Positions 41,629-52,302 of a stretch of 56,037 nucleotides of DNA are shown piece by piece (the stretch's first letter is position 1; each line of letters starts with the position of its first letter). Source of the stretch: an uncultured Thermogutta sp. (GTDB lineage Bacteria; Planctomycetota; Planctomycetia; Pirellulales; Thermoguttaceae); NCBI GenBank assembly GCA_937128505.1, contig CAKZMM010000131.1, positions 1-56,037 of the forward strand, read 5' to 3'. The notes beneath the pieces are model-generated. The model was not told the origin of the DNA and did no database searches. It worked only from the letters and a program-made list of their open reading frames with translations. Both the position numbers and the translations under genes were made by a program.

Positions 41629-42078
41629 ACAGTTAGGTGCCGAATCCTCAGGGAACCACGCATTCCCTCCTTCAGCAAGAGTCCCGGCAGCCAACCTCCT
41701 AGCTCAAGATGCTTCGCTAAAAGGGAAGAATTACCGCGGAAAGATGGAAGATGGGTAGCCGAAAGTGCGGGTGAACCTCCAGTGTAACTGCCATCTAGAA
41801 ACTAGCTCCGTTTGACGTTTTTAGAAAGATTTACGAGGTATTTTGGTCCGGCCAGTACAGGCACAGAAGGTTAACAAGGAAGGTTAATGTGCATGGGTGA
41901 ACGCCGAAAACGTCAGGTATATCCACGAAGGTTTGAAAAGGCGTTTTTAATACTCGAGTAGTTCAACGTAAAAAGCGAAGGCATCAGTAGGTCGTCCCGG
42001 TGAGATCCGGTCCTTCCGGAGCCCCCCGGGGCGATTGTGCTAAGTAGGGCCGGGTTTGAAACTGTTTCGATCGCAGAC
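41629..42078. other. Spacer before the TPR gene
   Basis: About 450 bp between the lipoprotein and the TPR gene. No gene, terminator or repeat array stands out. Confidence 0.5.
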
Positions 42079-45000
42079 ATGATAGCTCCAGGTTCAAACC
42101 GCGGCGGCAGAAAGCTGGTGGCCTATTTGGCCCTTGCCTGGTTGCTTCTTGCAGCCGGCAGCTTCCCACGTCTTGTTAGGGGGCAGCAAAATCTCTGGTG
42201 GCAAGAAAGTGTTGGACGGCAGGACGATGCAGCGGGGCAAGAAAAAATCGCGGGGAAAGAAAATCTCGCAGGGCAGCGAAACCAACCGGGGCAGGAAAAT
42301 GATGCCAAGGAGCGGGATCGATATCGGGTGGCCGTTACCCACTTTGCAGAGGGCCGCTGGGAGTTTGCCGTAGCAGAGCTTTCCGAATACCTCGCCCAAT
42401 GGCCCCAAAGTCCGAAGGCACCCGAATTGCGGGTGTATTTGGCCGAATCGCTGATCCAGCTCAGGCGGCTGCCTGAAGCGCGAGAATACTTCGAGGGAAT
42501 TTCTCAGGATCTTGCCGAAAAAACCATCACCATCCCCGAGCGGCTTCAAGGCCTTGTCGAATTCCGACTGGGCGAATTGCCCTTCCTAACGCAGGCCTAT
42601 CCTGAGGCCGAAACGCGGCTCCAAAATTTCTTGACCACATATCCAAAGCATTTTTTGGCCCCATTTGCGGCGAATTACTTGGGGCAAATTTCGTTGGCCA
42701 AAAACGACTTATCGAACGCGGAACGACTGTTTCGGGAGGCAATCGAGCGATTTTCTGAGCATATCGCGGTGGATGAGTGCCGCTTCGGGTTGGCTCAGGT
42801 TTTGGAACGCCAAGGAAAGCTCGAGGAGGCGGCCCGACTGTACCTCGCCTTATCGGGTAAACCTTTAAATCCTCTGGCAACAGAATCACTTTTTCGCCTA
42901 GCTCGAATTCAATCCCGTTTGGGGTTTGTTGAAGACGCCCTAGCCAGTTTCCAGGAGCTTGAGCGTGCCGCGACGGATGATCTACTTAAGGCGAAAGCAA
43001 AGCTGGCTCAAGGGAAACTGCTTATTCGGATGGGACGCCATCCGGAGGCGAGGCCCCTGCTTCAGGAGGTGACCCCGTTCGAGTCGCTCGCGGCGGAAGC
43101 CTACTTCTGGCTAGGTACATCGTATTGGGCCGAGAGATATTACCGCGAGGCTTCCGAGGCTTTTGCGGCCTCGTTGGGTAAGGAAACCGACCCCCACAGA
43201 ATCCCCCTTGCACGCTTGCGCTTGGCTGATTCGCTTTTGGCCGCCGGCCAAGCTGCGGAGGCATTGGTTCACTACGATCAATTGCTTAAGGGAATGATCG
43301 ACGATGGGCGGCCGGGTAATCCGCTGGTCCCCTATGCTGCGATCGGGATGGCCCGCGTGCTCTTAAAACAGGGTCGCCACGCTGAGGCGGCCGAAAGCTG
43401 TCGGCGGGTTCTCGCAGCCCCTCAAGGAATAAACCCGGAGTGCCGCGATGCCCTGCGAGTTTTGGCGGGGATCGCGCTAGTGCACATGCAGTGTTTTGAG
43501 GAAGCAGAAAGCATTTTAGCGGAGAAAGTTGATCCTCCTCAAGAGATTCATAACACCTCCGAGATTGATCACACTTCTTCGGGAGCAATCTCGAAAGGCG
43601 ATCTAAAGGCAGATTCCATCCGCCAATTATTTCGCGTTTATCTACTCGCTTTGGCGAAGGAGGGTCAAGGCAGGTATGCCGAGGCACTCGAGGATTTTTG
43701 TCGTGTCTCGAAGGAAGCCGGCGGCGATTTAACTCCCTTTGCCCGGTTGGGCGAAGCACGGTGCATGATCGGCCAATCACGGTTTCAGGAGGCCGCCGAG
43801 CTCCTCTCAGGGTTAAGAAGCGCCGATACCCCTCCCCCGGTAGCCCTGAAGGCCTACTCCCTATCGATCATCACTCAAATACGGTTGGGAAACTGGGACG
43901 CGGCCAAATCTGCGTACGCGGATTTTATCCAGCGCGATTGGGCCGAGGCTGAAATCGTGGAGCTTTTACATGCGGTTGCCCGGGAACTTGCCCACTCGCA
44001 ACCTCACCCCTGGGCGTTAGAAGTTTTTTCCGAACTCGCGGGGCGAAAGCCAAATTCCCCCTTGGGCAACTGGGTCCTCCTTCAGCTTGCCTGGTGCGAA
44101 TATCGATTAGGGCTGCAACAAAAGGCGGAGAAAACTCTGCGAATTCTGGTGGGAAAAGTGCAGGAAGAAGAGCTTCTTGTGGAAGCGGCCTTACTGCGGG
44201 GCCAAATTCTTGAAGAGCTCGGCTCCCCGGACGAAGCCCTGCTTATGTATCGGCGGGCTGTAGAAGGCGCCGCGGGCCAGAAGCTTGCCGAAGCGATTTG
44301 GTATCTGGCAAGCTGCTATCACCGGCTCAAGCGATGGGCGGAGGCCAGCACGTGGTATCGAAAGCTTGATGAGGAATTTCCCTCATTTCTGCAGGCAGAT
44401 CAAGTCCTCTACTTTTGGGCACTGGCGGAGCGTGCGGCACACTCGGTGCAAGCGGGGCAGGAGGCCGGGCCACCGAAACCAGAAAGTTTTGGGGAAGCAG
44501 AAAGCTTGCTGGAGAAGCTCCGGAAGCGTTTTCCGAACAGTGCGTACTGGTTCGAAGCTACTTTGCTCTTGGCCGAATGGGCCACGGAGTCGGGGCGGCT
44601 TGACCGGGCTCAAAAATTTTTAGACGAACTCTCTACCCGGGCAACCGAGTCGGTCGCCGCTACCCCTCGGCACAGGGCCAAGTATTTGCAGGGGGAGCTT
44701 CATCTATTGGAAGGACGCTGGGACGAGGCCGAACAAATTTTCCGAGGTTTGCTCGCCGAACAACCGGAGCCACGACTGGGGATTCAGGCACAGTTCGGGA
44801 TGGCCGAAGCTCTCTACCGGCAGAATGCGTATGAGGAGGCCCTCAGCGAATTCGAGGCCTTTTTGAAAACGGCGTGTGAAAAGGCGGGTCTGTCGGAGCC
44901 ATGGTGCTCGCTGGCCAGGCTGAGGAAGCTCCAAATCTTATGCCACCAACGGTGGTGGCCGGAAGCAATCGAGCTTGCCGAAGAATTGTGGCGGAATCCC

Positions 45001-45420
45001 TCGGACCAAGAGCACCTTGATGAGGTGTGTTTGCTGCGGGGTACCGCCCATTTTGGCCGGGCTGAATTCGCAGAGGCTCGGAACTGGTTTGAAAGGGCGA
45101 TCGAATTTTCCAAGGGGAACAACACGGCCGTTGGTGCCGAAGCTCAATTCATGATCGCGGAAACCTTCCTGCATCAGGGGGATTACCGCCAAGCATTACG
45201 CGAGTATTTACGGCTCGACATCCTTTATCCCCTGCCGCAGTGGCGAGCACCGGCAACCCTTCAGGCGGGCAAGTGTTACGAGAAACTAGGGCGCTATCAA
45301 GAGGCGGCGGGACAATATCGACGCTTGCTCCAGGAATGGTCTCAGAGCCCCTGGGCTCAGGAGGCCGAAGAAAGACTAAGGGTCTTAGACGGATCGCCGC
45401 AAGTGGGCGTGAACCGTTGA
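42079..45420 (+). CDS. Large exported TPR protein, first gene of the ExbB/ExbD operon
   Basis: About 1113 residues. A signal sequence (RKLVAYLALAWLLLAAGSF) is followed by a short Gln/Gly/Glu-rich segment made of six-residue repeats. The rest is almost entirely tetratricopeptide-like helix pairs with the usual pattern of A, Y, G and A positions, such as GRWEFAVAELSEYLAQWP and GRYQEAAGQYRRLLQEW. There are probably 20 or more. No enzymatic domain is visible. TPR proteins of this sort (compare CpoB/YbgF of the Tol-Pal system) act as periplasmic scaffolds. The start may be the ATG at 42079 or a GTG at 42037. It is followed after 50 bp by exbB, then exbD and the toroid protein gene, so its product probably works with that complex. 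Confidence 0.88.
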   Translation: MIAPGSNRGGRKLVAYLALAWLLLAAGSFPRLVRGQQNLWWQESVGRQDDAAGQEKIAGKENLAGQRNQPGQENDAKERDRYRVAVTHFAEGRWEFAVAELSEYLAQWPQSPKAPELRVYLAESLIQLRRLPEAREYFEGISQDLAEKTITIPERLQGLVEFRLGELPFLTQAYPEAETRLQNFLTTYPKHFLAPFAANYLGQISLAKNDLSNAERLFREAIERFSEHIAVDECRFGLAQVLERQGKLEEAARLYLALSGKPLNPLATESLFRLARIQSRLGFVEDALASFQELERAATDDLLKAKAKLAQGKLLIRMGRHPEARPLLQEVTPFESLAAEAYFWLGTSYWAERYYREASEAFAASLGKETDPHRIPLARLRLADSLLAAGQAAEALVHYDQLLKGMIDDGRPGNPLVPYAAIGMARVLLKQGRHAEAAESCRRVLAAPQGINPECRDALRVLAGIALVHMQCFEEAESILAEKVDPPQEIHNTSEIDHTSSGAISKGDLKADSIRQLFRVYLLALAKEGQGRYAEALEDFCRVSKEAGGDLTPFARLGEARCMIGQSRFQEAAELLSGLRSADTPPPVALKAYSLSIITQIRLGNWDAAKSAYADFIQRDWAEAEIVELLHAVARELAHSQPHPWALEVFSELAGRKPNSPLGNWVLLQLAWCEYRLGLQQKAEKTLRILVGKVQEEELLVEAALLRGQILEELGSPDEALLMYRRAVEGAAGQKLAEAIWYLASCYHRLKRWAEASTWYRKLDEEFPSFLQADQVLYFWALAERAAHSVQAGQEAGPPKPESFGEAESLLEKLRKRFPNSAYWFEATLLLAEWATESGRLDRAQKFLDELSTRATESVAATPRHRAKYLQGELHLLEGRWDEAEQIFRGLLAEQPEPRLGIQAQFGMAEALYRQNAYEEALSEFEAFLKTACEKAGLSEPWCSLARLRKLQILCHQRWWPEAIELAEELWRNPSDQEHLDEVCLLRGTAHFGRAEFAEARNWFERAIEFSKGNNTAVGAEAQFMIAETFLHQGDYRQALREYLRLDILYPLPQWRAPATLQAGKCYEKLGRYQEAAGQYRRLLQEWSQSPWAQEAEERLRVLDGSPQVGVNR
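42184..42309 (+). repeat. In-frame 18-bp tandem repeat within the TPR gene
   Basis: Seven units of 18 bp begin at 42184, 42202, 42220, 42238, 42256, 42274 and 42292. The consensus is CAAGAAAATCTCGCGGGG. They encode six-residue repeats such as GQEKIA, GKENLA, GQRNQP and GQENDA between the signal sequence and the first TPR. The same kind of degenerate short-period array fills many spacers in this window; here it has been kept in frame. Confidence 0.85.
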
Positions 45421-46469: not shown

Positions 46470-46997
46470 GCCCTCTTACTTAAGGAAGCCATTTTGCTCT
46501 CAAAAGGCGGAAAGCCATTCGTCTTCAAAAAAGGTGGCGGTAAGCCTTTAGTTTCCACAAACGCAGCAGAAAGCCTTTAGTCGTTAAAAAATGCGGCAGT
46601 AACCCCTAAGTCTTCAAAAGATGGGGAGGGTGTTCGAAAACTTGCGGGAGGTGTGCCGAGTTGATGGCAAAAAGGAACATTAGGCCGGGAAGGGAATGCC
46701 GCGAGGCATTTAGCGAGATTCGCGAGATTTCGCCTGAGTCATGCGATCTTGGTAAAGCGGTTTCGCCTGATCCATGAGATCTTTTTAAACTCGCGGATTT
46801 CGTAAAGGCATCGGGCTTTTGGCGTAACCAAGCGATGCCCTAAACAATTGGGTCATTAAATTGGCAGAATACCTGTGATTTTAGCTAAGGGAAAGTCGAC
46901 CGACGAAATCCTCGGCTTCAGAGCCATTCGACCTCCAAAACAGGTTGCAAACCTCGAATCTTGCGGAGGGTATTTCTTGCACCAATCGGAGGAGCCC
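46470..46997. other. Spacer between exbB and exbD
   Basis: 528 bp, long for an operon whose two products form one complex. It contains the repeat array at 46484-46626 and a second set with TTTCGCCTGAnTCATG at about 46728-46780. GGAGGAG at 46988-46994 is the exbD ribosome binding site. No gene is recognised. Confidence 0.65.
46484..46626. repeat. 29-30-bp tandem repeat array between exbB and exbD, 5 copies
   Basis: Units begin at 46484, 46509, 46539, 46568 and 46598 (25, 30, 29, 30 and 29 bp). Each starts GGAAAGCC-TTTAGTC, continues TTCAAAAAA and ends in a GGCGG-like block. The alternation of 29 and 30 bp rules out a coding repeat. It splits an otherwise compact operon. Confidence 0.85.
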
Positions 46998-47417
46998 ATG
47001 CCGCTGAAAACGCAACGCGATGAGCCACCTGCCCTCAACCTCACCCCCATGATTGATGTGGTATTTCTGCTCATCATCTTTTTCATGTTGGGGACGAAGT
47101 TTACGGAGCTAGAGCGGAAAATTGAGTTGAGGATTCCCGAGGTCACACGAGCCGAAACCCTCACGCCTGCCCCCGATCCGCGAATCATCAACGTTTATCG
47201 CGATGGAACGATTACTTTGGACCGGGAAACGGTCAGCTTGGATCAGCTCAAGGAAAAGCTTGCCCAGGCCGCCGAACAGTACTCGCAACTGGGAGTACTC
47301 GTCCGCGGCGATGCCCAGGGATCGTTTCAGCGAATCGCGGAGGTATTAAACGCTTGCAAGCAGGCCCAAGTGCGACACTTAGGAATCGCTGTGCGACCTA
47401 GCCAGAGTCGGGAGTAG
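46998..47417 (+). CDS. exbD: ExbD/TolR-family protein
   Basis: 139 residues from the ATG at 46998, preceded by GGAGGAG at ideal spacing; a longer frame starting at 46875 is less likely. A short basic N-terminus leads to the single membrane segment LTPMIDVVFLLIIFFML, in which Asp20 is the proton-carrying aspartate equivalent to Asp25 of E. coli ExbD. The periplasmic domain (about 45-139) ends in the usual fold with LVRGDAQGSFQRIAEVLNAC. It should sit inside the ExbB pentamer. The stop codon lies three bases before the ATG of the toroid protein gene. Confidence 0.94.
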   Translation: MPLKTQRDEPPALNLTPMIDVVFLLIIFFMLGTKFTELERKIELRIPEVTRAETLTPAPDPRIINVYRDGTITLDRETVSLDQLKEKLAQAAEQYSQLGVLVRGDAQGSFQRIAEVLNACKQAQVRHLGIAVRPSQSRE

Positions 47418-47420
47418 GCC

Positions 47421-49781
47421 ATGGATTCGGCGTGGTTTTTTCTTGCAATCGACCTCGCACGGCATCGGTGGACGCCGTATTTCTTTGGGCCACGTTGGAT
47501 GATCGGTTGGCTATGGCTCGGTTTAGTCGGCTTAACCATCACGCTATTTGTGCTCATGGCTACTCGTTGGGGGCGATCTCGGCCTTTGCGGAAGTGTCTC
47601 CTCCTATCGCTTTGGGCCCATGCGTTGCTTGCCGGATTCGCCACGATGATCGAGATTGCTACCCCGGAGGCGAATTCGCCAACCCCCGAACCCGTTGCAC
47701 TCGCCCTGACGGAAGCTCGCCTGGCGGAGCAACCGACACCTCCACTCAGCAGCTCCCCTTCGGGAGTATCCTGGGAAACGGTACGCCCGGTATCGCTCGC
47801 CAGTCCGAGGTCTGCGGTCGATCCGTTTTCGCAGTCGCCGCCGCTTGCACAAGTACAAGCCCCGGAGCTGAGTCCCGAGCCCTCCGCCGCGACTGGTTTT
47901 TCGTCGCAACCAGAAGTTGTACCTTTTCCGGAACTAGATCCGGTATCGCCGGCGCCGCTTGATTTGAACTCATCGCCGGTGGCGGATCGGTTTGAGGCGA
48001 AGGAGACTCCGCATCCATCGGGACGCTTACTTGCCGCCCCTGCGATTAAACCATCCGAGGAGGTTCCGCGCGGCTTCGATTCCTCCGCGGACGCTCCAAC
48101 GAAAAAGCATGCTGCGATATTGCCGCCACAATCCGAAGCCAAAATGCTCGTTCCGCCTTTGGCTCGAATTAGCCCCCCGTTGGCCAGGCCGCCTGAGCCG
48201 TCGGCCAATCCGTCCGCTGGATCAAAAGGAAACCGTTTAGATCCGGAACTCGATTCGCAAACAGGACTGCTGGTTCCCCACGATCTGACGGCCTCTTTGA
48301 GCCGCCCGGCGCTGGAGCCAACCATTGACGATATCGAGACCCGAATACCACTGAACAGCGAGACCGAGTCACCACGCGGCCCATCTTCGACCGTATCGGT
48401 ACCGGTTCTGGGGGACAGTGTAGCCGCGGCTGAGCCCCAAGGTGTGGAACCGCCGACGCCATTCGATGAATTAGTCGAAGTGAGCCCCCCTGAACGGAAC
48501 ATGGTTCCCTTTGACCAGTTGCCTCCAAGGCCCGCGCCTCTTGGTCCGGGCAAACCGCTAATTTTGGACCGGGCGGGCCGGGAGTCGGACGTCTCCTCGG
48601 ATTCAAAGGGGGCATTGCCGGGGCTTTCGGTTCGTCGGGGGGAGCGCTCGGTTAGTCCCCGCGCCGAAATCTACCGCCTGCGGTTTGCTCCGGACCGCAC
48701 CGTTCAGGCGATTGCCCGGGGAGCGACACCGGCTACTGAGGCTGCTGTCGAGGCGGCCCTGGCTTGGTTGGCACGTAATCAGGAGCCGGACGGACGCTGG
48801 GACGCTGTCAAACATGGGGCAGGGGTCGAACGTTTCGTCGCAGGCAGAGACCGCCAAGGAGCCGGAAGAGGAGCCGACACCGGTATGTCGGGCCTTGCGC
48901 TTTTAGCCTTTTTGGGGGCAGGGCACACCCATCAGGATGGCCCCTATCGCCCGGTCGTGCAGCGCGGGATCGACTTTCTGGTCCGGTCTCAAAAAACCGA
49001 TGGAAGCCTGGGCGGCAACGCCAGCCATTACGCCTTCATGTATTGCCACGCTATGGCACTGTTCGCCTTGGGTGAGGCCCTGGCACTGACCGGCGACGAG
49101 CGGTTGCGACCGGTCGTCGAGAAAGCCGTGGCCTTCACCATCGAGTGCCAGGACCCTGTCGGCGGCGGATGGCGGTATCTGCCAAAGGAAGCCGGAGACA
49201 CGAGTCAATTGGGTTGGCAATTGCTGGCCCTCAAAAGTGCGGAGTATGCCGGCGTCGAGATACCCCAGGAAGTTTACCAGAATGCTAATCGCTTTTTGGC
49301 GAGCGTCTCAAGTGGGTCGGCTGGCGGATTGGCTGCTTATCGGGCGGTAGAGCGCCCCAGCCGTCCTATGACGGCCGAAGCTTTGGCTTGCCGAATATTC
49401 TTGCAGGAGGCTCCGAATACTGCGGCGGCCCGTGAGGCCGCCCAATATCTAATGGGTGAACTGCCGGGCTATACCGCTCCAAACTTCTACTATTGGTACT
49501 ACGGCACCCTGGCCCTGTATCAAATGCAGGATGAATCGTGGCATAGATGGAACGCCGCCCTTCGGCAAACCCTAGTCACTACCCAAAGAAAAGACCGGCC
49601 GTACGACGGCAGTTGGGACCCCAATTGCCTATGGGGCGGCTATGGAGGAAGAGTCTATACGACCGCACTTGCCACACTATGTTTGGAAGTTTACTACCGT
49701 TACCTCCCAATACTCCAGATGGTGGAAAGCTATCATTTCGAGCGCGTGTCTAACTTGCAAAACCCCGAGAAAAGACGGTAA
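47421..49781 (+). CDS. TonB-like anchor fused to a squalene-cyclase-like alpha/alpha-toroid domain
   Basis: 786 residues. Two membrane segments lie at about 28-47 and 59-78, separated by a basic loop (RWGRSRPLRK) that should face the cytoplasm. The second segment, LLLSLWAHALLAGF, carries Ser63-xxx-His67, the SxxxH motif by which TonB and TolA couple to ExbB/ExbD or TolQ/TolR. About 340 Pro/Ser/Glu-rich residues follow, as in the periplasmic spacer of TonB. Residues about 425-775 are a prenyltransferase/squalene-oxidase-repeat toroid: AALAWLARNQEPDGRWD, IDFLVRSQKTDGSLGG and AVAFTIECQDPVGGGWRY. The Asp-rich DCTAE/DXDD motif of true cyclases is not evident, so it is probably a binding domain. 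GGGAG precedes the start and exbD ends three bases upstream. The family is known in planctomycetes; the TonB-like reading is inference. Confidence 0.9.
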   Translation: MDSAWFFLAIDLARHRWTPYFFGPRWMIGWLWLGLVGLTITLFVLMATRWGRSRPLRKCLLLSLWAHALLAGFATMIEIATPEANSPTPEPVALALTEARLAEQPTPPLSSSPSGVSWETVRPVSLASPRSAVDPFSQSPPLAQVQAPELSPEPSAATGFSSQPEVVPFPELDPVSPAPLDLNSSPVADRFEAKETPHPSGRLLAAPAIKPSEEVPRGFDSSADAPTKKHAAILPPQSEAKMLVPPLARISPPLARPPEPSANPSAGSKGNRLDPELDSQTGLLVPHDLTASLSRPALEPTIDDIETRIPLNSETESPRGPSSTVSVPVLGDSVAAAEPQGVEPPTPFDELVEVSPPERNMVPFDQLPPRPAPLGPGKPLILDRAGRESDVSSDSKGALPGLSVRRGERSVSPRAEIYRLRFAPDRTVQAIARGATPATEAAVEAALAWLARNQEPDGRWDAVKHGAGVERFVAGRDRQGAGRGADTGMSGLALLAFLGAGHTHQDGPYRPVVQRGIDFLVRSQKTDGSLGGNASHYAFMYCHAMALFALGEALALTGDERLRPVVEKAVAFTIECQDPVGGGWRYLPKEAGDTSQLGWQLLALKSAEYAGVEIPQEVYQNANRFLASVSSGSAGGLAAYRAVERPSRPMTAEALACRIFLQEAPNTAAAREAAQYLMGELPGYTAPNFYYWYYGTLALYQMQDESWHRWNAALRQTLVTTQRKDRPYDGSWDPNCLWGGYGGRVYTTALATLCLEVYYRYLPILQMVESYHFERVSNLQNPEKRR

Positions 49782-50808: not shown

Positions 50809-52302
50809 TCAATGGGCGGGGGCCGTGAGAGGAGGCAACTGTGCCGCCAGACTATCGAGGACGAGCACCCAATCATGGCCGCGGCCTGAGCCCGGGGCCT
50901 GATACCGAACCCGCGATTTCCGCGGTTCTTCACCGATTAGTCGTCCCAGCCCTGTCCGCGGATCGAACCACCAAGCCCGAATCCGATCTCCTTGAAGGGC
51001 CGACAGAGTGACTTCGACCGATCCGCCCGTAGGTAAAGAGACCATCAAGAAACTCCCGTCATCGGCCCGCGATGCCCGGCGGTGATCAGCTCCCGAAAGC
51101 TCGGAGCCGGCGACAATTGATTGATCCGGCACCAATTTCCAGAAAGGCCGCAGGGAGAAAAGCTTTTTCATATACCCCATCTGTGCACTGCCTGGATGGC
51201 GAAGCGCTTGCTGCCACGGCGTCCGAGCGGAGGCGACCGGCGATCGCCCCGGCGCATACATTTGCCAAATGTTGTGATTGCCGTATGTATGGCCGCATGC
51301 ACCGCTGAGCATCGACCAATACGCCGCTTGCCGGACATCCCAATCGTCGAACCAGCCTTTTTCTGCGTTCCAGCCAATGGGGTGATCTTCATAGCGTGGT
51401 TCGCCATCTAACACCGGTTTTTGCGGCCGCAACAGATAGGTCTCATAAGTCGTTCGATAATTCGGCAAATTCGGCTCCGAATGTCCCGACTGAAACATGT
51501 TGAAGTTTAGCCACTCGTCGTTATGAAACCATCGAGCGGAATTCCCGCCCCCCTGAGGATGATAGGTCAGAAGGTGCGCGCCGCCATCACCCCGCCTGAG
51601 CCCTTGGGCCATCGCGCGAATGATCTCGAGGTGGCGGTCGCTCTCCGGGTTGCGATCGCCCCCGAGGATCCAAATAATGGGCTTATCGCGGTATCGCCGA
51701 CCGAGCCACTCTCCGTATCGTAGGGCATTTTCCGCGTCAAAAATCTCCGGCCCCCGCCCCCATTTCTTATTCCACTTATCGCCCCAAGTCGGAAGCATCC
51801 CCATGAAAAGCCCCAGTTCTTGGGCCCGATTCACAATCCAATCCACGTGGTCCCAGTAGTCATTTTCCGGACCTTCCACCACAAGCGGCCGCGTAGGGTC
51901 CAGGTCCACCAGCGGAATGTGCCCATACGCGTTGGGGGATTGAAGTCCGTCCAATTCGGCAAGCACCACAGCCTGAATGACGGTGAAACCCTTCGCGGCT
52001 CGGTCCCGCAGATAAAGCTCCGCTTCCTCCCGGTTAAGCCGATGGAAGAGTTCCCAGGCCGTATCCCCCAGATAGAAAAACGGCTGTCCCTCAGCGGTCT
52101 CAAGGTAACGACCATTGGCACTGACGCGCAGCCGCGACGTCTGAGCCCAAGCCTCGGGCAAATTTGCAACCACTACCCCCAGCAAAAGAAACCAGCAAAT
52201 GGCAACCTTGGCCAGCCAAGCGATCGAAAACCCTCCGCGAACCGGGTAACGAAGGCAACTCGTAAAGCATAAGACTACTTTCGATTCCCATGGTGGCAAC
52301 AT
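50809..52302 (-). CDS. Exported GH140-like glycoside hydrolase (DUF4038)
   Basis: 497 residues with a signal segment (about 25-52, ending near AWAQ). The barrel begins with the DUF4038 signature RYLETAEGQPFFYLGDTAWE at 65-84. It continues with the family's TWGDKW and the likely catalytic acids Asp216 in ILGGDRNPE and Glu301 in VLDGEPRYE. The region GACGHTYGNHNIW is also typical. A C-terminal beta domain (about 400-490, with WWFDPRTG) corresponds to the collagen-binding-like domain that follows this catalytic domain. The characterised GH140 member is an apiosidase acting on pectin side chains; the substrate here is not certain. A sugar isomerase gene lies 222 bp upstream on the same strand. 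Confidence 0.88.
   Translation of the reverse strand: MLPPWESKVVLCFTSCLRYPVRGGFSIAWLAKVAICWFLLLGVVVANLPEAWAQTSRLRVSANGRYLETAEGQPFFYLGDTAWELFHRLNREEAELYLRDRAAKGFTVIQAVVLAELDGLQSPNAYGHIPLVDLDPTRPLVVEGPENDYWDHVDWIVNRAQELGLFMGMLPTWGDKWNKKWGRGPEIFDAENALRYGEWLGRRYRDKPIIWILGGDRNPESDRHLEIIRAMAQGLRRGDGGAHLLTYHPQGGGNSARWFHNDEWLNFNMFQSGHSEPNLPNYRTTYETYLLRPQKPVLDGEPRYEDHPIGWNAEKGWFDDWDVRQAAYWSMLSGACGHTYGNHNIWQMYAPGRSPVASARTPWQQALRHPGSAQMGYMKKLFSLRPFWKLVPDQSIVAGSELSGADHRRASRADDGSFLMVSLPTGGSVEVTLSALQGDRIRAWWFDPRTGLGRLIGEEPRKSRVRYQAPGSGRGHDWVLVLDSLAAQLPPLTAPAH

Follow-up and report, generated by a model that had tools for sequence, protein, structure and literature searches.

A predicted ExbBD-coupled transducer of TonB/TolA layout with a squalene-cyclase-like toroid tip in Planctomycetota

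Introduction

What does an ExbBD motor act on when the gene behind exbD encodes a membrane-anchored protein that ends in a squalene-cyclase-like toroid? The question is raised by a locus of an uncultured Thermogutta sp. The stretch of DNA analysed, called the window in the following, is the entire contig C131 (CAKZMM010000131.1; 56,037 nucleotides), which belongs to a 5.58-Mb draft genome estimated to be 98% complete. An initial annotation, made from the sequence alone, proposed a force-transducing protein in which the C-terminal TonB/TolA domain is replaced by the toroid, perhaps to pull on or carry a lipid or an outer-membrane partner, and stated that no gene of the window encodes an ordinary TonB. 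This last statement held, and a TonB_C domain is absent not only from the window but from the whole draft genome.

The operon and its products

Four genes on the plus strand follow each other in the order TPR protein, exbB, exbD and transducer (Table 1), with a gap of only 3 bp between the exbD stop codon and the start of the transducer open reading frame. Among the NCBIfam models, TolQ and TolR fit the motor pair best and YbgF/CpoB fits the TPR protein best. The TPR protein matches TIGR02795 (tol_pal_ybgF) at 7.9e-67 with 223.3 bits summed across the repeats (cut-off 90.1), and the ExbB subunit matches TolQ at 4.8e-26 and ExbB at 3.8e-16, both under the equivalog cut-offs. For exbD the open frame also allows a start at GTG 46875; the ATG at 46998 is probably the correct one. 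The gap between exbB and exbD contains imperfect direct repeats of about 30 bp (window 46487-46629; four copies of 35 nt at a spacing of 29-30). Downstream, on the opposite strand, an apiosidase-like protein is encoded (window 50809-52302, minus strand; PF13204, 1.4e-123).

Table 1. Genes of the operon and segments of the transducer, in window coordinates
Feature	Position	Strand	Basis
TPR-repeat protein, 1127 aa, hydrophobic N-terminus, CpoB/YbgF-like repeats; operon gene 1	42037..45420	+	TPR_16 2.7e-48
ExbB/TolQ-family motor subunit, 332 aa	45471..46469	+	PF01618 2.4e-27
ExbD/TolR-family motor subunit, 139 aa from ATG 46998	46998..47417	+	PF02472 3.8e-28
Toroid-tipped TonB/TolA-like transducer, 786 aa	47421..49781	+	ORF
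Membrane hairpin, residues 24-74, with basic loop	47490..47642	+	AlphaFold2 full-length model
Anchor Ser63	47607-47609	+	
Anchor His67	47619-47621	+	
D-box-like strand VALALTE, residues 92-98, His+25 to His+31	47694..47714	+	Motif defined according to PMC10907165
Disordered Pro/Ser-rich linker reaching the modelled toroid	47715..48653	+	AlphaFold2, composition
Alpha/alpha toroid, squalene-cyclase/prenyltransferase superfamily, residues 412-786 as modelled	48654..49778	+	Pfam, AlphaFold2, fold search

In the AlphaFold2 model of the full protein, membrane helices are located at residues 24-47 and 55-74. The second hydrophobic segment, which is preceded by TRWGRSRPLRKC, contains Ser63-LWA-His67. 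Residues 80-408 have a pLDDT below 50 nearly throughout, whereas most residues of the toroid between 416 and 761 exceed 90. The linker, residues 81-408, contains 18.6% Pro and 31.4% Pro plus Ser; its 328 residues come close to the approximately 340 Pro/Ser-rich residues of the initial annotation. The other features listed there, namely SxxxH, the basic loop, the spacer, the toroid and an exbD that ends 3 bp upstream, were all confirmed by the open reading frame, AlphaFold2 and Pfam. In the relatives described below, the Kyte-Doolittle mean is 1.6 or higher for the first hydrophobic segment in 90/90 anchors and for the second in 79/90. In 88 of the 90, the net charge of the loop between the helices is +2 or more, which is compatible with a basic cytoplasmic loop.

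Conservation of the anchor and of the gene order

Sixty genomes, including that of the window, were searched; 58 encode some relative of the toroid and 42 a strong orthologue (E <= 1e-100). Flanking DNA was fetched for 40 of the other 41 strong-orthologue genomes, G058 being the exception. From 409 loci, the 80 most similar to a full-length profile were taken as named loci, a procedure that favours complete proteins; their records bear labels such as Pirellulales, Pirellulaceae, Thermoguttaceae or Planctomycetaceae and include Blastopirellula marina DSM 3645, in which the operon is present (L125). The anchor set was reduced from 121 proteins to 96 distinct ones, of which 90 have a readable anchor; five of the six left out lie at a contig edge and one, L051, is split between two frames. 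Deduplication left 87 of 110 ExbB and 90 of 115 ExbD sequences. Alignment A1 comprises 37 of 41 sequences, with L051, L070, L075 and the truncated L064 omitted, and the ExbB alignment A3 comprises 34 rows from 37 references.

His67 is present in all 90 distinct relatives and is the sole fully invariant position of the anchor. Ser63 is found in 87, the other three (L057, L149, L172) having Ala, and Cys59 is likewise found in 87. L070 and L075, though outside A1, carry SxxxH. The remainder of the full SHLS motif is not kept: the position of its Leu (His+7, position 74) is occupied by Ala in 75/89, and that of its Ser (His+11, position 78) by Gln in 24 and Arg in 19 of 86. These two residues are less conserved in the Ton system too (PMC12215075).

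An exbD gene ends within 250 bp upstream in 87/89 loci, exbB lies within 1 kb in 81 of the 82 loci with sufficient upstream DNA, and a TPR gene was recognised within 3 kb upstream in 56 of the 68 loci with sufficient contig, a BLAST count that may miss diverged TPR genes. In L073 the end of exbD is about 2.2 kb off. Two results had been named beforehand that would have refuted the proposal, an SxxxH not conserved beside exbBD and a second hydrophobic segment that does not span the membrane. Neither was borne out, the latter in view of a modelled helix of membrane type and the hydrophobicity in most relatives.

A D-box-like strand at the spacing of TonB

According to crystal structures, a TonB strand in which hydrophobic and hydrophilic residues alternate is gripped by a dimer of ExbD immediately outside the membrane (PMC10907165). 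In 75 of the 90 relatives, the stretch from His+15 to His+45 contains a strand of the type hydrophobic-x-hydrophobic-x-hydrophobic, compared with 21 of 486 windows of equal length elsewhere in the linkers. The strand starts at His+25 in 40 proteins and at His+24 in 21, together 61/90. The strict D-box pattern is found in 34/90 versus 39/486 control windows. The relaxed pattern was framed post hoc, after the N-termini had been read, and a shuffle control was added. In 500 rounds of shuffling the segments, the relaxed pattern appeared on average in 12.6 and at most in 24 of 90 (observed 75), and a strand at His+24/25 on average in 1.0 and at most in 5 (observed 61). In E. coli TonB, the peptide of residues 43-54 reads QPISVTMVTPAD (PMC10907165) and the anchor His is His20 (PMC12215075), which places Ile45 at +25 and thus at the spacing of this family.

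The predicted interface with ExbB and ExbD

In cryo-EM structures, Ser16 and His20 of TonB contact Ser34 and Trp38 of ExbB, and Trp38 connects to Pro190 (PMC12215075). The equivalent of Ser34, Ser125, is kept in 84/84 ExbB sequences and that of Pro190, Pro276, in 87/87. Position 129, which corresponds to Trp38, is occupied by Leu (35), Val (19), Met (9) and others; Trp occurs in 0 of the 85 rows that have a residue there. The register of TM1 rests on an ungapped profile alignment that is sub-significant (0.6 bits to E. coli ExbB) and gave the same result for two different ExbB proteins. The pore residue Asp61 of ExbD (numbered from GTG 46875) is kept in 90/90.

Ser at ExbB position 129 occurs only in the loci of the three proteins with Ala63. 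Among 206 columns, position 129 is the only one strictly diagnostic of the Ala63 set; two more columns are unique except for one other row. The combination may reflect a swap of residues across the interface. The three loci form a single clade, with ExbB identities of 89-93%, and therefore represent one event. An untargeted scan for co-variation between the anchor and ExbB revealed no enrichment: pairings of the anchor helix with ExbB TM1 accounted for 6 of the top 100 pairs (4.9% expected) and those with TM3 for 7 (6.2% expected).

The toroid

The Pfam model SQHop_cyclase_C matches the toroid at 3.2e-10, best over residues 428-530. The Pfam search found no TonB_C in the 786-residue protein, in agreement with the replacement proposed in the initial annotation, and neither the Pfam search nor the toroid model revealed a vWA fold at the C-terminus. 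Modelled alone with 42 sequences, the toroid reached a pLDDT of 90.9 and a pTM of 0.90. Foldseek placed AprG on top (9lfq_E, 1.8e-5), followed by squalene-hopene cyclase (8paj_A, 2.1e-5). In a second fold comparison, squalene-hopene cyclase 2sqc_A ranked highest (Z 26.8, rmsd 2.9, 288 residues), ahead of further terpene cyclases and sugar-active alpha/alpha barrels. Complement TED-like toroids appeared among the fold and weak Pfam matches at lower rank. The pectate lyase PL10 model PF09492 ranged from 22 bits, below the cut-off, to 27.6 bits, just above it, in some relatives.

A terpene cyclase was considered and rejected. DxDD is the catalytic motif of class II (squalene-hopene) cyclases; it is missing here and occurs once, in one of 42 toroid sequences, and the NCBIfam cyclase model scores 54.5 bits against a cut-off of 322.7.

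Tyr541, Asp593, Tyr690, Tyr694 and Arg744 are kept in 42/42 toroids, five paralogues included, His543 in 41/42, and Glu653 in all 37 sequences of alignment A1. According to DSSP, these residues are located near the starts of predicted helices. These are probably the inner helices of the barrel, an assignment of our own made without coordinates. Alpha/alpha barrels of this kind bind ligands near the starts of their inner helices. The position of the polar residues therefore makes it probable that the toroid holds a specific ligand there, for instance a glycan, a peptide or the head group of a lipid, or else a partner protein. This is an inference without binding data. The TPR protein encoded upstream could be the first candidate for such a partner, again by inference.

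Paralogues and distribution in the phylum

The genome of the window encodes eight ExbD domains, spread over five contigs, and seven MotA/ExbB domains. Nine places in it match the transducer. In five of these, a membrane helix carries SxxxH: the window protein, L097 (1251 aa, SLLFH, behind a second exbD), L078, L079 and L080. Motor genes were not found in the fetched flanks of the last three. L082, L083, L084 and L095 lack SxxxH in a membrane helix. At L095 (6407-12531), two exbD genes and one exbB are accompanied by a 299-residue membrane protein without a Pfam match and by a protein with toroid and HEAT repeats but no SxxxH.

A second, longer paralogue family occurs in TPR-exbB-exbD operons. 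Nine toroid proteins of more than 1000 residues from several genomes were compared (L097, L215-L219, L224, L230, L231); a tenth, L232, was excluded, as it is cut by the contig start. An exbD gene is adjacent in 8/9, the His is present in 8/9, and Ser occupies the Ser position in 6/9. In L231 (3158-7333), whose gene also lies in a TPR-exbB-exbD operon, the membrane helix has no His (VVALFCYFW).

In a different order of the class to which the genome of the window belongs, 12/12 proteins (L181-L192) combine SxxxH with an adjacent exbD. For three genomes of that order longer flanks were available (L225, L226, L227), and in 3/3 exbB was not near the exbD-transducer pair; ExbB-family genes are located elsewhere in these genomes. 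Across the phylum the profile matches 135 of 148 sampled genomes, which is uninformative about anchors. Outside the class, 14 loci (L194-L207) were scanned crudely: eight contain SxxxH or AxxxH within a hydrophobic stretch and six do not. BLAST detected no exbD in their short flanks, and four of these genomes (L222, L223, L228, L229) revealed no motor genes in longer flanks either. L224 (6011-9823), also outside the class, has the operon order TPR-exbB-exbD-transducer; in its transducer, TolB-type PD40 repeats (4.6e-29) separate the hairpin from an N-terminal membrane segment, and the anchor reads Ala-x3-His.

A model and its alternatives

Architecture, operon linkage, motif conservation and fold are shown by computation. 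They are best explained by a TonB/TolA-type transducer of the proton-motive force whose tip is of a new kind, a reading we consider likely, with the reservation that docking, force transfer and the ligand are inferred and that no complex was modelled or measured. In this model, the second membrane helix would dock against the outer surface of the ExbB pentamer via Ser63 and His67, the D-box-like strand just outside the membrane would be taken up by the ExbD dimer, and ExbBD would pull on the periplasmic toroid by way of the disordered linker of about 330 residues. Since the toroid takes the place of the TonB_C/TolA domain, the protein would work in the manner of TonB and TolA without being a member of either. 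The force-transducer inference of the initial annotation is thus supported; the D-box spacing and the change in ExbB at the predicted contact also fit, though no complex has been predicted. Its suggestion of a lipid or outer-membrane target remains a guess without a supporting test, and a role with TonB-dependent receptors is disfavoured. Arguing against the model are the missing Trp38 and SHLS Leu and Ser, the presence of two membrane helices instead of the one in TonB and TolA, and L231, which lacks the His. The weak TM1 register, the modest excess of the strict D-box pattern, the origin of the Ala63/Ser129 combination in one event and the exbD-transducer pairs without a nearby exbB in the other order also count against it.

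That the toroid protein has no coupling to the motor and stands in an exbBD operon by chance appears very unlikely. In its favour, the genome of the window also encodes membrane-anchored toroids, L078, L079 and L080, whose fetched flanks contain no motor genes. These orphans, however, also have SxxxH in a membrane helix, and the linkage to exbD in 87/89 loci, the invariant His, the D-box spacing and the interface swap argue against chance. Equally hard to sustain is a substitute TonB that serves TonB-dependent receptors. TonB_C is absent from the genome of the window, which does encode ExbB and ExbD domains, and from its two congeners. Yet the receptor Plug domain was also undetected in these three genomes and in 13 more of the 42 strong-orthologue relatives, many of them drafts, and in genomes with both receptors and TonB_C the two can be neighbours (e.g., G042, 5485155 and 5485981). 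TonB_C was found in 16/60 relatives and Plug in 32/60; among the strong-orthologue genomes, 29/42 lack TonB_C and 16/42 lack Plug. Genomes that carry the orthologue without TonB_C or Plug indicate that the transducer is not tied to receptor uptake. A membrane-tethered enzyme (a terpene cyclase, sugar lyase or epimerase-like), the activity of which is gated by the ExbBD motor and which has no force-bearing tip, has more to recommend it but is still unlikely. The closest fold by Z score is squalene-hopene cyclase, the top Foldseek match, AprG, is an enzyme, sugar-active alpha/alpha barrels match, and invariant polar residues lie near helix starts. Against it stand the near-absence of DxDD (1/42) and the low cyclase score (54.5 versus 322.7), and ligand binding would yield equal conservation.

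The remaining alternative concerns the role rather than the mechanism: a Tol-like envelope-anchoring or division machine in which the toroid would hold on to a partner in the periplasm or the outer membrane instead of TolB-Pal. TolQ, TolR and YbgF/CpoB are the best models for the neighbours, with the TPR gene recognised in 56/68 loci; TolB_N was not found in the genome of the window, yet three OmpA-type domains were, outside the operon; and in the distant relative L224 the transducer itself carries TolB-type PD40 repeats. Against it, the operon contains no TolB or Pal gene, and several such proteins per genome hint at specialised clients rather than at one essential envelope machine. On balance we lean slightly away from this reading as an explanation in its own right. 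It is, however, compatible with the force transducer and, because of the TolQ, TolR and YbgF models, it may serve as the likeliest guess on what the preferred transducer does.

Relation to known systems and significance

The transducer shares with TonB and TolA an SxxxH in the motor-docking helix, a long disordered Pro-rich spacer, a location beside exbBD and a D-box-like strand at equal distance. It differs in having two membrane helices in place of one, in not keeping the SHLS Leu and Ser, and in ending with a toroid where TonB and TolA have a C-terminal domain that acts by beta-strand addition. With Tol-Pal it has in common the CpoB/YbgF-like TPR protein and the TolQ-like and TolR-like subunits; it lacks the TolA C-terminal domain, and its operon lacks TolB and Pal. 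Squalene-hopene cyclase and prenyltransferase toroids have the same fold and QxxDGxW-type repeats, whereas the transducer has a single barrel, no DxDD and a membrane anchor. Similar in layout are the SHLS-anchored vWA proteins that PVC bacteria, Planctomycetes among others, encode behind TPR, tolQ and tolR genes (Williams-Jones et al. 2025; PMC12204202). There too, TPR, tolQ-like and tolR-like genes precede the gene for a protein that has an SHLS anchor, a disordered linker and a tip other than that of TonB; unlike here, the tip is a vWA domain and the tolR-like genes are frequently paired. The authors expect more undiscovered systems, and their main text does not mention toroids, cyclases, squalene, terpenes or prenyl. 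No report of toroid-tipped transducers was found in the open-access literature searched, which left subscription papers and preprints mostly outside, and a text search of the phylum proteome paper PMC8567305 gave no match.

The findings could be extended to a phylum-wide class of ExbBD-pulled proteins, several per genome, in which cyclase-fold toroids replace the tips of TonB and Tol and the motors pull on toroids that hold lipids, glycans or peptides. This would amount to a force-driven periplasmic transport or remodelling unlike Ton and Tol, a proposition for which we see slightly more reason to hesitate than to accept. As far as we found, motor-driven transducers of TonB/TolA layout have been described with the TonB/TolA domain as tip and, from 2025 on, with the vWA fold; the toroid would be the third class. 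If the model is correct, it would give the many planctomycete proteins known as 'squalene cyclase-like' a testable mechanical role, and it would help to explain the function of ExbBD motors in diderm bacteria without a detectable TonB.
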